Assembly (NCBI RefSeq): GCF_023746595.1 | Contig: NZ_CP080572.1 | Span: 1,782,530 to 1,846,529 of the forward strand | Source of the DNA: Thermococcus argininiproducens | GTDB lineage: Archaea > Methanobacteriota_B > Thermococci > Thermococcales > Thermococcaceae | Reading direction: 5' to 3' | Length of the DNA stretch: 64,000 nt | Shown here: one piece after another, positions 1,858 to 8,315 of the stretch | Numbering within the stretch: position 1 is the first letter of the stretch | How the letters are laid out: every line of letters begins with the position of its first letter | Position numbers and translations under genes: made by a program | Notes under the pieces: model-generated | What the model was told of the DNA's origin: nothing | Databases searched by the model: none | Seen by the model: only the letters and a program-made list of their open reading frames with translations

Positions 1858-2685
1858 GTGGCAGCTATGGAGTATTATCAAGCAGTTTTTATTGGAATAC
1901 TTCAAGGGATTACAGAATGGCTACCAATAAGCAGCTCGGGCCAGGTTATGCTCTCACTTATTAATTTCATAAGGATTTCTCCAGAAGACGCATACTCATA
2001 TTCACTTATTCTGCATTTGGGAACACTAATGGCATTGCTTTTTAAATTTAGATATGATCTAGGTAAAATTATGTTCAAACTCCTTCTTTTTAGGTGGGAG
2101 GAGGAAGAAAAGTTTCTATTCTATTCCACATTATTCACCGGACTGATAGGTCTTCCATTATACAAAGGATTTAAATCCATTGTCTCGTCGTTTAACCCAG
2201 AAGCTGTAAATGGTATAATTGGTATAGCATTGATTCTCACGGGGATAATGTTAAAGAAAAGCCAAGAAGCGCCTTTAGAGAGACTTGAAAAAGGTCTCAA
2301 GAAAGAAAAAGATGAAGTCACAATAGTAGACGCAATAATAGCAGGAATAGCCCAAGGAGTAGCAGTTATTCCTGGTATATCAAGATCAGGGATGACGATA
2401 GGAAGTTTGTTACTTTTAGGTATAAAGCAAGAAAAAGCTGTTAGATTAAGCTTTTTAATGGCAGCCCCAGCTATAATTGGAGCCCTATTTCTAGAATTAC
2501 CCGAAGCCTCAAGAACATCTGAACCTCTTTCTTTACCTTTAGCCTCCATACTTAGTGCATTCATTGTAAGTCTGCTCATGCTCGAGCTTATGATGAAACT
2601 CGCCAAGCGTCTTAATTTCTCAAGATTCTGCATCTTCTTTGGATTTATAGCTCTAATAGCTTCTTTAGTGGGGGTGTTAACTTGA
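1858..2685 (+). CDS. uppP: Undecaprenyl-diphosphatase family protein (UppP/BacA)
   Basis: A 275-residue membrane protein with about eight hydrophobic helices and both BacA/UppP signatures: LQGITEWLPISSSGQ near residues 15-29 and PGISRSG near residues 172-178. The family hydrolyses polyprenyl diphosphate to the monophosphate at the membrane, recycling the lipid carrier of surface glycans; in archaea the substrate should be a dolichyl-type diphosphate. The start may be the GTG at 1858 or the ATG at 1867; both are compatible with a leaderless transcript. The stop overlaps the TTG start of the nucleotidylyltransferase gene, so the two are probably co-translated and may serve glycan synthesis together. 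Confidence 0.9.
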   Translation: MAAMEYYQAVFIGILQGITEWLPISSSGQVMLSLINFIRISPEDAYSYSLILHLGTLMALLFKFRYDLGKIMFKLLLFRWEEEEKFLFYSTLFTGLIGLPLYKGFKSIVSSFNPEAVNGIIGIALILTGIMLKKSQEAPLERLEKGLKKEKDEVTIVDAIIAGIAQGVAVIPGISRSGMTIGSLLLLGIKQEKAVRLSFLMAAPAIIGALFLELPEASRTSEPLSLPLASILSAFIVSLLMLELMMKLAKRLNFSRFCIFFGFIALIASLVGVLT

Positions 2686-3941
2686 AGGGTGTGATACTTG
2701 CTGCTGGAAAAGGAGAAAGGTTAAGACCTCTTACAGATGACAGACCCAAGGTAATGCTCAAAGTTGCTAATAAGCCAATAATAGAACATGTATTGGAAAA
2801 CATTTATCCATTTGTAGATGAATTTATAGTGGTTGTGAGATACCATAAAGAGAAGTTAATGGAGCATCTTGGAGACGAATACGGAGGGAAACCTATAACT
2901 TACGTTGAACAAGTACAGGGAGAAGGAACCGCGAAGGCAATATACTCTGCAATTAAATATACAGAAAATGAAGAGTTTTTAACTGTTAATGGAGACATAT
3001 ACTTTGAGAGAGAAGGCATAAAAACGCTTCTCCAAGCATTTAGAAAACACAATGCTGATGCTGCTTTATTGGTAAAAGAATTTAAAGACTTGAGCCATTT
3101 TGGAATGGTAGAAATTGAAAACGAATCTGTAAAAGCAATAAAAGAAAAACCCGGCGCTATAAGTGGATATGCAAATTTAGGGATTTATTTCTTCAAGCCA
3201 GAAATTTTTGAATTCATCGAAAAAACCGGTGAAAGTGAACGTGGAGAATATGAAATTACAGACACAATAAACCTCATGATTAAGGAAAACAGGAAAGTTA
3301 CTTATGCAGTTTATGAGGGGTACTGGAATGATATTGGTAGACCATGGAACCTTCTTGAGCTGAACGAATACCTCCTCAAAAACCATCTTAAACATAATAT
3401 AAAAGGCATTGTAGAGGAAGGAGCTACTATCATCCCACCTGTAGAAATCGGAGAAGGAACTGTTGTACGAAGCGGAGCTTACATTATAGGACCAGTGAAA
3501 ATTGGGAAAAACTCAAAAATAGGCCCCAATTGCTTTATCCGTCCCTATACCAGTATAGGAAACAAATGTCATGTTGGAAATGCAGTCGAAATCAAAAACT
3601 CAATAATAATGGATCACAGCAACGCTCCTCATCTGAATTACGTGGGTGACTCCATAATTGGAGAAAACACAAATCTTGGAGCTGGAACAATTACCGCCAA
3701 CTTACGACATGACAATAAAAATATAAAGGTCGAAATAAAAGGTAAACTTGAAGATAGTGGTAGAAGAAAGCTTGGGGCAATAATAGGCCATAACGTGAAA
3801 ACTGGAATTAATGTCACTATATACCCTGGCAGAAAGATAGGAAGCAACTCGTTTGTTGGCCCGGGATTAATAGTTGATAAAAATATTCCTCCAAATGTGC
3901 TGGTTGTAGCTAAACAGGAGAAAGAAATAATTACCTGGTGA
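2682..3941 (+). CDS. Bifunctional sugar-1-phosphate nucleotidylyltransferase/acetyltransferase
   Basis: A 419-residue two-domain enzyme. The N-terminal nucleotidylyltransferase domain (about 1-230) carries LAAGKGERLRPLTDDRPK, VNGDIYF and YWNDIGRPWNL. The C-terminal part (about 245-410) is a left-handed beta-helix of hexapeptide repeats (for example IGEGTVVRSGAYIIGPVKIG) with the GlmU-like stretch GAGTITANLRHD. Archaeal homologues such as Sulfolobus ST0452 make UDP-GlcNAc or dTDP-glucose and acetylate hexosamine-1-phosphate. The TTG start at 2682 overlaps the uppP stop. The exact sugar cannot be read from sequence. Confidence 0.88.
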   Translation: MKGVILAAGKGERLRPLTDDRPKVMLKVANKPIIEHVLENIYPFVDEFIVVVRYHKEKLMEHLGDEYGGKPITYVEQVQGEGTAKAIYSAIKYTENEEFLTVNGDIYFEREGIKTLLQAFRKHNADAALLVKEFKDLSHFGMVEIENESVKAIKEKPGAISGYANLGIYFFKPEIFEFIEKTGESERGEYEITDTINLMIKENRKVTYAVYEGYWNDIGRPWNLLELNEYLLKNHLKHNIKGIVEEGATIIPPVEIGEGTVVRSGAYIIGPVKIGKNSKIGPNCFIRPYTSIGNKCHVGNAVEIKNSIIMDHSNAPHLNYVGDSIIGENTNLGAGTITANLRHDNKNIKVEIKGKLEDSGRRKLGAIIGHNVKTGINVTIYPGRKIGSNSFVGPGLIVDKNIPPNVLVVAKQEKEIITW

Positions 3942-3947
3942 AAAGGG

Positions 3948-5057
3948 ATGGATTTCATCCCCTATATTAACTTTATTTCAAGATGGTTGTTGTTCCTAGC
4001 CGTAACATATAAAGCATTGAAAAGTAAAGAAAAAAGATGGGGGTTAATAGCCACGGCTCTTTTTATAAACGCTCTCGATATAGAGAGCTATATCTTAGAG
4101 CCTTTAGGGGTCGGTATAAAACCAGGGGCATATGAAATAACTTCCCAGCTCCCAGGTTTTCTAATGGCCACGTTTTTAGTATGGGGAGGAATACAACTCA
4201 AAAAGGAAAGAAGTGAATTTAAGGATGTTGCATATTTAGGATTTTTTGCCGTTGCTGCATACATATGGATCTTTCTATCAGCTACAGACTTTTTTGACAG
4301 GTTTTCACACTCATTTACAATAAAACTCTCATTTCCATACCTCGCCTTTGGGTTTTCATTGATCTACATTGGATACATACTAAGAAGTTACGTAGTGGCA
4401 AAAAAGAGTCTTGAGGAGCTATTTCCTTGGGGACTGGCCCTTTTAGGAGCAATAAACCTAACCTATCCAGTCACCCGAAATATTGAATGGCTTGTCCCCA
4501 TAGCATTCCTACTTGCAGCCATTTTCAGATTTATAGCTGCTGTTGGAGCTCTGAAATTTGCTATATTTCCTGCAAAAATGGCTGTATTTGAAAGACCACA
4601 AAAAGAACATCCAACGGAGATTAAGGGGATTTTTCTATTTAATAGCAAAAAAGAACTCAAGAGAAACCTCCCAACCTTCTTCAGTGAGAATGTAATAATG
4701 ATAACAAGGAATCCACCAAAAATAGATGACTTAGATAATGTGCTAGTTTATTGGCTCACTAAGATAGAAAGTGATACTATCAAACAAGATGGGAAGATTT
4801 ACCCCATCTCTCCTGCAAAAATAGATATCTTGATAGACCTTTTAACTAGAAACCTTGAAAGCGGCTACAATGCCATTTATGTAGATGGATTCGAATATTT
4901 AGTGGTGGAAAATGGATTCGAAAGTGCAGCAAAATTTTTATTCGGGCTTAGAGACAGGGTGATGAGTAATGACAAAGCTCTAGCTGTTGTTTTAGACCCA
5001 AGAACACTAGATGATAGACAAATGGCACTTCTTGAAAGAGAACTTCGACTTCAATAG
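3948..5057 (+). CDS. Membrane protein with C-terminal DUF835 domain
   Basis: A 369-residue protein with about seven predicted transmembrane helices in residues 1-205, then a soluble domain (about 225-369) with the DUF835 pattern NVIMITRNPP, YWLTKIESDT and AIYVDGFEYLVVENGF. DUF835 is common in Thermococcales, often after a multi-helix membrane domain, and has no established function; its fold may relate to degenerate P-loop ATPases. It follows the nucleotidylyltransferase gene by only six bases, so an envelope or signalling role in the same operon is an inference from position. Confidence 0.75.
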   Translation: MDFIPYINFISRWLLFLAVTYKALKSKEKRWGLIATALFINALDIESYILEPLGVGIKPGAYEITSQLPGFLMATFLVWGGIQLKKERSEFKDVAYLGFFAVAAYIWIFLSATDFFDRFSHSFTIKLSFPYLAFGFSLIYIGYILRSYVVAKKSLEELFPWGLALLGAINLTYPVTRNIEWLVPIAFLLAAIFRFIAAVGALKFAIFPAKMAVFERPQKEHPTEIKGIFLFNSKKELKRNLPTFFSENVIMITRNPPKIDDLDNVLVYWLTKIESDTIKQDGKIYPISPAKIDILIDLLTRNLESGYNAIYVDGFEYLVVENGFESAAKFLFGLRDRVMSNDKALAVVLDPRTLDDRQMALLERELRLQ

Positions 5058-5076
5058 ATAAAAGGTAGAGAAAAGT

Positions 5077-6249
5077 TCAGAATCCGAGATACTCTATAAA
5101 TCTCCTAGTATGTTTTACATCTCTTTGGAGTTCGATTTTTTGAAGTATTTGTCTTTCTATTGCCCTAAGAGCATCATGCACAGCTTGTATAGCACCCCAT
5201 GTCTCTCCTGTAGCAATATATTGTCCTTTATCTGTTACTATTCTCATCCTAGCTTGGTATAGATGCACTCCACGAAGCTTTTCTGGGAACCGTCTAATGT
5301 TCAAATAGATTATTCCCTCATTGCCTAGTACTTCTTCGTACCTATCGACAAACCTTCTCATATCAGCTACTATCCTTTCCCTAGTGAAATCACTCAGATA
5401 GTGAGCATCTCCTCCAAGTTGTAAATAGAACTTAGTCTTTTTCTCCACCATTCTTGAGATTGGAAGTAATAGATCCTTTACAGTTAACACTCCCTTAACA
5501 ACATTCTCCCTATCCACAATTACAAGACCATCTATGTCATACTCTCTCATTAATTCAACTGCCTCTTTGACTGATGCTTCAGGGTCTATTGTAATCACTC
5601 CCTTAACCATGATGTCTCTGAGCTGCATTGAAAACGGAGGTATTTTCTCCCCTGCCACCTCTCCGAATTGGGCCTTGAACCTCGGCTTTATGAACCGAAT
5701 TATTAGATCATGCAATGTTACGAGCCCTTCGAGTTTTCCTTCTTCAGTAACAATGGGTATTCTTGAAATTGCATAGTCCCTCATAGTTGCAAGAGCCTTT
5801 GCTACCGTGTCTCCGGGACCAAGAGTAACCACGTCCTTCGTCATAAATTCCTCGACTTTTCTTTTTCCAAACTCTTCTTTAACAATTCTTTCAAGAAGGG
5901 TTATATCGCTTATTACACCAATAATTGAATTTTTATCCTTCCCAACGGGAAGTGAACGTAAGTCAACCTCAATCATGAGTTTGGCTGTAACACTTAAGTC
6001 TTCTTCAAGCTTTACAACTGGTGCAGTCTTATATACATCCTTAACTTTGGCTTTTATTGGATCCCACTTCAAATGGGACCGAATTATCAAATCTTGAGTC
6101 AATACTCCTTTGTACATTTTTCCATCAAAAACAACAATTAAATCGGGGTCTTCTTTTTCAAAAATTCCAATGGCCTCAGAAAGAGGGGAGTTTATGTCGA
6201 TTTTTGCAAATTTTTCTGTCATAACTTCCTGCACAGAAATCCCGACCAT
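5077..6249 (-). CDS. Four-CBS-domain protein with HPF-like C-terminal domain
   Basis: A protein of about 390 residues with four consecutive CBS motifs (about 8-60, 72-125, 135-195 and 210-265; for example VEEFMTKDVVTLGPGDTVAK and DIMVKGVITIDPEASVKEAV). The last 115 residues are different: VTDKGQYIATGETWGAIQAV followed by HDALRAIERQI resembles the beta-alpha end of bacterial HPF/YfiA ribosome-hibernation proteins. CBS pairs bind adenine nucleotides, so the protein could sense energy state and act on ribosomes; CBS-containing archaeal hibernation factors have been reported. The ATG at 6249 is chosen because AGGAGGTG lies 7 bases upstream; the frame starting at 6267 would include that site. The ribosome role is inferred. 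Confidence 0.75.
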   Translation of the reverse strand: MVGISVQEVMTEKFAKIDINSPLSEAIGIFEKEDPDLIVVFDGKMYKGVLTQDLIIRSHLKWDPIKAKVKDVYKTAPVVKLEEDLSVTAKLMIEVDLRSLPVGKDKNSIIGVISDITLLERIVKEEFGKRKVEEFMTKDVVTLGPGDTVAKALATMRDYAISRIPIVTEEGKLEGLVTLHDLIIRFIKPRFKAQFGEVAGEKIPPFSMQLRDIMVKGVITIDPEASVKEAVELMREYDIDGLVIVDRENVVKGVLTVKDLLLPISRMVEKKTKFYLQLGGDAHYLSDFTRERIVADMRRFVDRYEEVLGNEGIIYLNIRRFPEKLRGVHLYQARMRIVTDKGQYIATGETWGAIQAVHDALRAIERQILQKIELQRDVKHTRRFIEYLGF

Positions 6250-6355
6250 TCTTGACACCTCCTTCAATGTTATATTAGTTTTTATTCCATTTAAACCTTT
6301 CCAAGAGAAGGTTTATTTAAAAGAGGGAAATAAAATTTTTAGCCGACCGTTAATC

Positions 6356-6969
6356 TCAATTTAGCTTAAATGGATAGTTTTTCCTAAAAACCAGATAAAC
6401 TCCAAATAAGGCACCAAGTGTGTTTACTAGAACATCCCTAACTTTATTTCCAATGCTCTCATGTATAAAAGAAATCTCACTTTCACTGAGTTTTTCAGCT
6501 ACTTCCCATCCAATACTGAGCATGAATAGGATAACAAAAGAATATACGAGCAATTTTTTCTTATTAAGTCCTATATATCCGTTCCTAGTAAGATTAACTA
6601 AAATCTCAGTCACCAACAACCAAACCACTAATCCCCAAAAAAGTGGCTTATCATGTCAGCATTTCTCCATTCTTTGTGAAAAAGATCAATAGTAGTGAAA
6701 GGCACATTCACAAGAGAAACATGAATAGCTATGAATATTCCTAAAACCGCCATACTTTCCACATTATAGATAGGACTTAATATCAGGGCAATTTTTGAGG
6801 GAGGATTCTTAAGATATTTTTCAACAAGGTCAGGAATATAAAGCCCGATTAGTGCTACAGTAGTGCGATAAATATGATCAATTCTCCAATAAACAAGGGC
6901 AGTTACCAACCCAAGAAAAACTATGAACCTACTTACATTTAGCACTGTTTTTGGCTCTATATACACCAC
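6356..6969 (-). pseudogene. Frameshifted multi-helix membrane protein (DUF2238/YjdF-like)
   Basis: Two adjoining minus-strand frames make one protein if read continuously. The first (6969-6628, 113 residues) ends NADMISHFFGD and stops; the second (6628-6356, 90 residues) begins VVWLLVTEILVNL in another frame. The junction is a run of six T and four G bases on the coding strand; one extra G would give SHFFGGLVVWLL, a natural continuation. Both halves are hydrophobic, and the second has SIGWEVAE and RDVLVNTLGALFGV, reminiscent of DUF2238/VanZ-like membrane proteins. A sequencing slip in the homopolymer, a real inactivating mutation, or slippage-based expression are all possible. Confidence 0.65.
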
Positions 6970-7005
6970 CTAAAAAAGTAGGAGTTTATCTAATTTAATG
7001 ATTTT

Positions 7006-7040
7006 GGTGACCTAGGCCGCCCTAAAGGACGGATTTTTCG
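7006..7040 (-). mobile_element. IS605-type terminal hairpin relic
   Basis: On the minus strand the sequence AATCCGTCCTTTAGGGCGG continues CCTAGGTCACC. The stem CCGTCC/GGGCGG closes a TTTA loop and is followed by GGTCAC, very like the hairpin and terminus downstream of tnpB in archaeal IS605/IS1341 elements. It lies alone between the subtilase stop and the broken membrane gene, with no transposase. It could also act as an RNA 3' hairpin. Confidence 0.42.
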
Positions 7041-7058
7041 GAAGATAAAATTAAAAAA

Positions 7059-8315
7059 TCAATTGATGGCAGCTTGCACAGCCAAATCTGCCCTCACTAT
7101 CCCATATCCATAGTAAGGATCCCAACCAAGCAGTCCATGATCTTCTGCAGTTGTGTGGAGAATTTCTCTAAGTGCTTCAACCGAAAGAACTGTTCCATAC
7201 TTGTTATAGCGAGCTGCTTGAACAAGTGCAACTACTCCACTCACATGGGGTGTTGCCATTGAAGTTCCACTCAGTGTTGTGTAACTATCATCTGGATATG
7301 TGCTTAATATATCAACACCAGGAGCGCTGACCTCTACTCCTCTATTACTCCACCAAGGCACCTGATCATTAACGTCAGTCGCACCAACAGCTATAACTTC
7401 AGGATATGCCGCTGGATAACTCGGACTTGAGGCACCATCGTTACCACTTGCCGCAACTATAATCACTCCCCAACTGTATGCCCAATTTATTGCATCATGG
7501 AAGGATTCGACATCACTTGACCCCCTAAGACTCATGCTTATTACTTCAGCCGCATCATCATCATCTGGGTCTCCAACTATTATTCCATCCCCGTCACTAT
7601 CAAGTACACCATCGGGCCCTAATAAGGCCTGTTCAATCCCAAGAATTATATCACTGTATGAACCACTCCCACTTGGACCAAGAACTCTGATAGCGTATAT
7701 CTCTACACTTGGAGCGACGCCAACAACACCTATCTCATTGTTTAAAGCCGCCACTGTGCCAGCTACATGTGTACCATGTCCATTCTGATCCCTGTAATCC
7801 TTAGGTTTTGTTGATACTTTTCCCCTAAGTACGCTAACCCCCCATGCTAAATTGGGAGCTAAATCTGGATGGTCATAGTCTATGCCCGTATCAAGTATTG
7901 CTACTTCGATCACTCCCCCACTTGCGCCATCACTTATACTCCATGCGTCTAGAGCTTTAACACGAGAAATGCCCCATGGAATTTCCTGAGGAGGTTGGGG
8001 AGGCTTTGGTTTACCAACTCCAGGAGGTTTCCCCTTTAATATATGAACTTCTGCATCATACTCTACCCTAATCACACCCTTAACATTCTTTACTCTCTCT
8101 AGTGCCCTAGAAGGAATGTCAACTACAACAATTGGAAAAATTCTTCCTTTTGCAACAACATTTCCACCCAACGCAAATATAAAACTCTCATTGAATTCTC
8201 TGTCTACTGTTACTATCACACGAACCTTTTCAACAGGAGCTCCCCATACTACACCTCCCATAGCTCCAAACATTACAAAAACCAAAAATAGAACAAAAAT
8301 CTTATAAAATTTCAT
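7059..8315 (-). CDS. Secreted subtilisin-like serine protease (Tk-subtilisin type)
   Basis: A 418-residue S8 protease precursor. A signal peptide (about 1-25, ending VVWGA) precedes an I9-type propeptide (about 29-95) and the catalytic domain. The triad is Asp142 (LDTGID), His180 (NGHGTHVAGT) and Ser352 (GTSMATPH), with oxyanion Asn292. An acidic insertion GVLDSDGDGIIVGDPDDDDA (about 236-255) matches the Ca2+-binding loop of Thermococcus kodakarensis Tk-subtilisin, needed for folding at high temperature. A proline-rich linker (KPPGVGKPKPPQPPQ) joins propeptide and mature part. The ATG at 8315 follows AGGGGTGA. It is expected to be exported and to digest external protein, feeding the peptide metabolism that VOR serves. 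Confidence 0.95.
   Translation of the reverse strand: MKFYKIFVLFLVFVMFGAMGGVVWGAPVEKVRVIVTVDREFNESFIFALGGNVVAKGRIFPIVVVDIPSRALERVKNVKGVIRVEYDAEVHILKGKPPGVGKPKPPQPPQEIPWGISRVKALDAWSISDGASGGVIEVAILDTGIDYDHPDLAPNLAWGVSVLRGKVSTKPKDYRDQNGHGTHVAGTVAALNNEIGVVGVAPSVEIYAIRVLGPSGSGSYSDIILGIEQALLGPDGVLDSDGDGIIVGDPDDDDAAEVISMSLRGSSDVESFHDAINWAYSWGVIIVAASGNDGASSPSYPAAYPEVIAVGATDVNDQVPWWSNRGVEVSAPGVDILSTYPDDSYTTLSGTSMATPHVSGVVALVQAARYNKYGTVLSVEALREILHTTAEDHGLLGWDPYYGYGIVRADLAVQAAIN

Follow-up and report, generated by a model that had tools for sequence, protein, structure and literature searches.

The window analysed here is a stretch of 64,000 nucleotides from Thermococcus argininiproducens. Reading and translation of its minus strand reveal an open reading frame of 390 aa between positions 5077 and 6249. 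This gene, hibA, and the elements within and upstream of it are as follows.

5077..6249, minus strand: hibA gene, encoding the 390-aa HibA protein (ATG at 6249, stop codon at 5077–5079; phmmer match to 9SR9 chain H, E 7.7e-197; 76% identity)
5443..6249, minus strand: N-terminal CBS module, residues 1–269, with four CBS domains in two Bateman pairs (PF00571; limits as in Pyrococcus abyssi HibA)
5629..5682, minus strand: equivalent of the PTC loop, residues 190–207, RFKAQFGEVAGEKIPPFS (by alignment with P. abyssi HibA; loop defined in PMC13324472)
5080..5442, minus strand: C-terminal HPF/RaiA-like domain, residues 270–390 (phmmer match to HibA, E 4.9e-55; Foldseek)
6256..6262, minus strand: ribosome-binding site GGAGGTG (read directly; kept in the upstream alignment of relatives)
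6289..6297, minus strand: TATA-like element GGTTTAAAT, A+T-rich and kept in the Thermococcaceae upstream alignment; putative promoter element
6312..6334, minus strand: degenerate palindrome TTTATTTCCCTCTTTTAAATAAA where most relatives have an intact Phr-like box, TTTATTAACnnnnnGTnAnTAAA (upstream alignment); putative Phr-binding site

The preliminary description of this DNA had placed the start of the gene at 6249, and the ribosome-binding site at 6256–6262 bears this out. A TTG start at 6267, proposed by an ORF finder, was rejected, because GGAGGTG precedes the ATG at 6249 and the relatives align from that codon. The genome carries a single full-length copy of hibA; all remaining matches cover CBS domains only.

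Convergent to hibA, at 1858–5057 on the plus strand, lie genes for a BacA-like protein, a sugar nucleotidyltransferase and a DUF835 membrane protein. Upstream, a subtilisin-family protease (PF00082) is encoded at 7059–8315 on the minus strand, and two small unassigned ORFs (6356–6628 and 6628–6969) are situated between it and hibA. In one other locus, L055, the BacA-like/nucleotidyltransferase/DUF835 block also adjoins hibA, and the upstream gene is methionine aminopeptidase-like instead of a subtilase.

Comparison of the upstream regions reveals, in most relatives, TTTATTAACnnnnnGTnAnTAAA-like boxes located 61–84 bases before the hibA start. These boxes agree at 13–14 of 14 fixed positions, a score reached by 0–1 of 200 shuffles of the same upstream sequence, and the counts are descriptive because the pattern was written after the alignment had been viewed. 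The box of the window species, TTTATTTCCCTCTTTTAAATAAA, scores 12 of 14 and those of its two nearest relatives (L009 and L010) score 11, while no recognizable Phr-like box was seen upstream of hibA in L018, L020 and L041. A scan of the T. argininiproducens genome with the Phr-like pattern, allowing up to three mismatches, gave 83 matches against 60 for a reversed-pattern control; single matches in the genome therefore mean little, and the argument depends on the box being conserved among relatives. In addition, the hsp20 gene of the same genome carries TTTAATAACTATCGGTAACCAAA just upstream. This is consistent with the heat-shock repressor Phr, which has been reported to control hibA (PMC13324472). 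Since the Phr-like box is eroded in the window clade, induction of hibA may differ there.

In a phmmer search of PDB sequences, residues 1–388 of the window protein aligned with residues 1–388 of 9SR9 chain H and of seven further entries (E 7.7e-197). The chain was deposited under the name 'Dehydrogenase', and entry 9SR9 is named in the text of a study of P. abyssi HibA (PAB0961), a hibernation factor with a CBS module at residues 1–269 and an HPF/RaiA-like domain at 270–392 (Madru et al., Nat Commun 2026; PMC13324472). Measured against the protein of locus L026, which matches the 9SR9 chain across the residues aligned, identity to the P. abyssi ortholog is 76% over the whole length; the CBS module stands at 78% and the tail at 72%. 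HibA of P. abyssi (UniProt Q9UYR4; PDB 9SR9–9SRF and 9T7H) and of Thermococcus barophilus (F0LKU5) has the same architecture as the window protein, four CBS domains and an HPF/RaiA domain, and the PTC loop of the P. abyssi protein occupies the same position. Compared with these two, hibA of the window shows only ordinary sequence divergence, apart from the degenerate state of the upstream Phr-like box.

P. abyssi HibA inhibits translation in vitro, and its ribosome-bound structure has been determined by cryo-EM. The tail occupies the mRNA/tRNA channel of the 30S subunit, the CBS module takes the tRNA sites of the 50S subunit, and the PTC loop enters the peptidyl-transferase centre. HibA sits on 70S ribosomes at near ribosomal-protein abundance. 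T. barophilus deleted for hibA has a lag of 4 h instead of 2 h on leaving stationary phase, and its 70S ribosomes during that phase are reduced by approximately 60% (PMC13324472).

The 76% identity and identical architecture allow the function of the orthologs to be extended to the window protein, which probably behaves on the ribosome as the P. abyssi and T. barophilus proteins do. The four-CBS module would swing onto the 50S subunit at the tRNA sites (PTC, uL5 and L1 stalk), and module and tail together would keep the idle 70S ribosome intact and unable to translate, with its active centres protected until growth resumes. One adenine nucleotide, preferably AMP, would be bound by the CBS module between CBS3 and CBS4. 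The gene at 5077–6249 is thus almost certainly an ortholog of hibA, encoding a four-CBS/HPF protein with this ribosome-preserving function. The preliminary description had called it a candidate ribosome hibernation factor; the reading is supported by the P. abyssi ortholog, and the word 'candidate' is outdated now that the family has been named HibA. The family has been on record, with its ribosome structures and its function, since April 2026, so that hibA itself is ordinary.

The four CBS domains recognized in the preliminary description were detected by Pfam as four stretches (PF00571, E 1.1e-41) and agree with the alignment to P. abyssi HibA. A model of the full-length protein has a pLDDT of 82.2; its sole segment with a pLDDT below 50 is residues 190–203, within the PTC-loop equivalent. 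The T-x-x-D motif is typical of CBS nucleotide sites, and the window protein has one in CBS3 (T178–D181) and one in CBS4 (T256–D259). One more S/T-x-x-D match, at 155–158, lies inside a helix. The motifs of CBS3 and CBS4 are compatible with the single nucleotide site reported for the ortholog, at the CBS3/CBS4 interface, where the isolated P. abyssi CBS module binds AMP (12 µM), ADP (65 µM) and ATP (113 µM) (PMC13324472).

The preliminary description had gone further and linked ribosome silencing to AMP/ATP. The nucleotide-binding part of this proposal stands, in that the CBS module of the ortholog prefers AMP to ADP and ADP to ATP, but an influence on ribosome binding does not follow. No nucleotide was seen in native HibA complexes. 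In reconstituted complexes AMP left the distribution of states unchanged and ATP added one weakly populated state; the authors reported that neither had a clear effect on the binding of HibA to the ribosome (PMC13324472). For this reason an energy switch is unproven. That HibA is mainly an AMP/ATP-gated switch, in which the nucleotide bound by the CBS module sets ribosome binding and release, would add to the HibA explanation and not replace it; the binding values and the T-x-x-D motifs of CBS3 and CBS4 speak for such a switch, yet in view of the nucleotide-free native complexes and the largely unresponsive reconstituted ones it appears rather unlikely.

Pull-downs suggest that hibernation may not be the sole role of HibA: the P. 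abyssi ortholog, Pab0961, was recovered together with RadB, a Sir2-family deacylase, GINS23 and GAN, the nuclease associated with GINS. The GINS23 contact was also seen in Thermococcus kodakarensis, with TK1186, and a personal communication cited in the same paper connects Hvo_2384 with RadA/RadB (PMC3820547). The contacts of Pab0961 with RadB, GINS23 and GAN were reported before HibA was recognized as a hibernation factor. On the strength of these contacts the protein could be regarded as a regulator of replication and recombination that acts on GINS, GAN and RadB and binds ribosomes only secondarily. This is very improbable, however, given the abundance of HibA on 70S ribosomes, the solved ribosome structure, the fall in 70S pools on deletion of hibA and the HPF fold of the tail. 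Somewhat less remote, though still improbable, is a HibA with two jobs, in which the nucleotides bound by the CBS module would choose between idle ribosomes and the GINS/GAN/RadB machinery, and in which erosion of the Phr-like box in the window clade would have uncoupled hibA from the heat-shock regulon. If so, energy status would silence translation and replication together.

Hibernation as the function of HibA draws further on the tail, which the preliminary description had likened to HPF/YfiA. This tail, of approximately 120 residues, was modelled with AlphaFold2 without templates from an alignment of 13 sequences (Thermococcales and three distant relatives). The model is confident (pLDDT 87.6, pTM 0.76), with the order strand-helix-strand-strand-strand-helix. 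A Foldseek search of the PDB returned 20 matches at E ≤ 0.001, all of them HPF/RaiA/YfiA/protein Y or chloroplast pY (TM-score by target length 0.49–0.80; identity 12–20%). The structure prediction thus yielded an HPF/RaiA-like fold and not an unrelated one, confirming the likeness. By sequence, residues 270–390 matched P. abyssi HibA (E 4.9e-55) and, more weakly, PDB 9L96 (E 1.2e-9) in phmmer searches of PDB sequences. A profile of the tail family, searched against the same sequences, reached HibA and 9L96 only and missed bacterial HPF, so that the HPF link rests on the fold and the published structure. The archaeal-specific insertions of the HPF domain (283–285 and 324–330 in P. abyssi HibA), through which the ortholog contacts uS19 and uS12 (PMC13324472), are present with no gap relative to that protein, as HYL at 283–285 and KLRGVHL at 324–330.

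The tail gave no significant Pfam match, and NCBIfam returned no HPF model, only CBS-driven matches far below the cut-offs. These results would favour an ordinary CBS protein with a tail only superficially like HPF, a reading that the predicted fold, the 20 top structural matches and the orthologous tail solved on the 30S subunit refute almost beyond doubt. The preliminary description had thus read the tail correctly, something not obvious from curated libraries: HibA is an example of a hibernation factor missed by sequence-only libraries, since Pfam and NCBIfam see its CBS domains alone.

Bacterial HPF/RaiA (YfiA) and chloroplast pY share the fold of the window tail, with 12–20% identity, and occupy a place on the small subunit like that of the HibA ortholog, but they lack a CBS module. 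The window protein is therefore distinct from a standalone HPF/RaiA, being fused to four CBS domains and matching no curated HPF model in Pfam or NCBIfam. PDB 9L96 chain a, a 406-aa 'CBS domain-containing protein' present in four PDB entries, is distantly related to HibA (E 5.2e-35 for the whole protein, 1.2e-9 for the tail); a literature search found no paper naming this entry. Among other archaeal factors, the haloarchaeal HVO_2384 (PMC12607858) is distant and likened by description, combining tandem CBS domains with a hibernation-factor-like tail as in the window protein. Dri of Pyrobaculum calidifontis (Pcal_1808) has two CBS modules and lacks an HPF domain (PMC13324472), whereas the window protein has one four-CBS module and an HPF domain. 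With PDB 9e6q the window protein showed a weak CBS match only (phmmer). This entry is presumably Dri.

HibA has been found in 47% of archaeal genomes (PMC13324472). Among the 61 genomes searched here, orthologs, either full-length or cut by a contig end, are present at 72–97% identity in all members of the Thermococcaceae except G006, an incomplete metagenome-assembled genome (MAG) of the same genus (79% complete). Such identity in essentially every genome of the family argues against a chance resemblance. In other families of the class, a full-length relative was present in three genomes only (G041, G050 and G057), at approximately 30% identity. In a locus designated 'Methanomicrobia archaeon isolate AUK010' (L065, positions 2717–7051), an hsp20 gene is followed, 34 bases after its stop codon, by the start of a distant hibA. 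Beside them lie genes for an AAA ATPase of the CDC48/VAT type and for a winged-helix regulator. In two further MAGs (L039 and L040), a similar hsp20 C-terminus is encoded upstream of the distant hibA.
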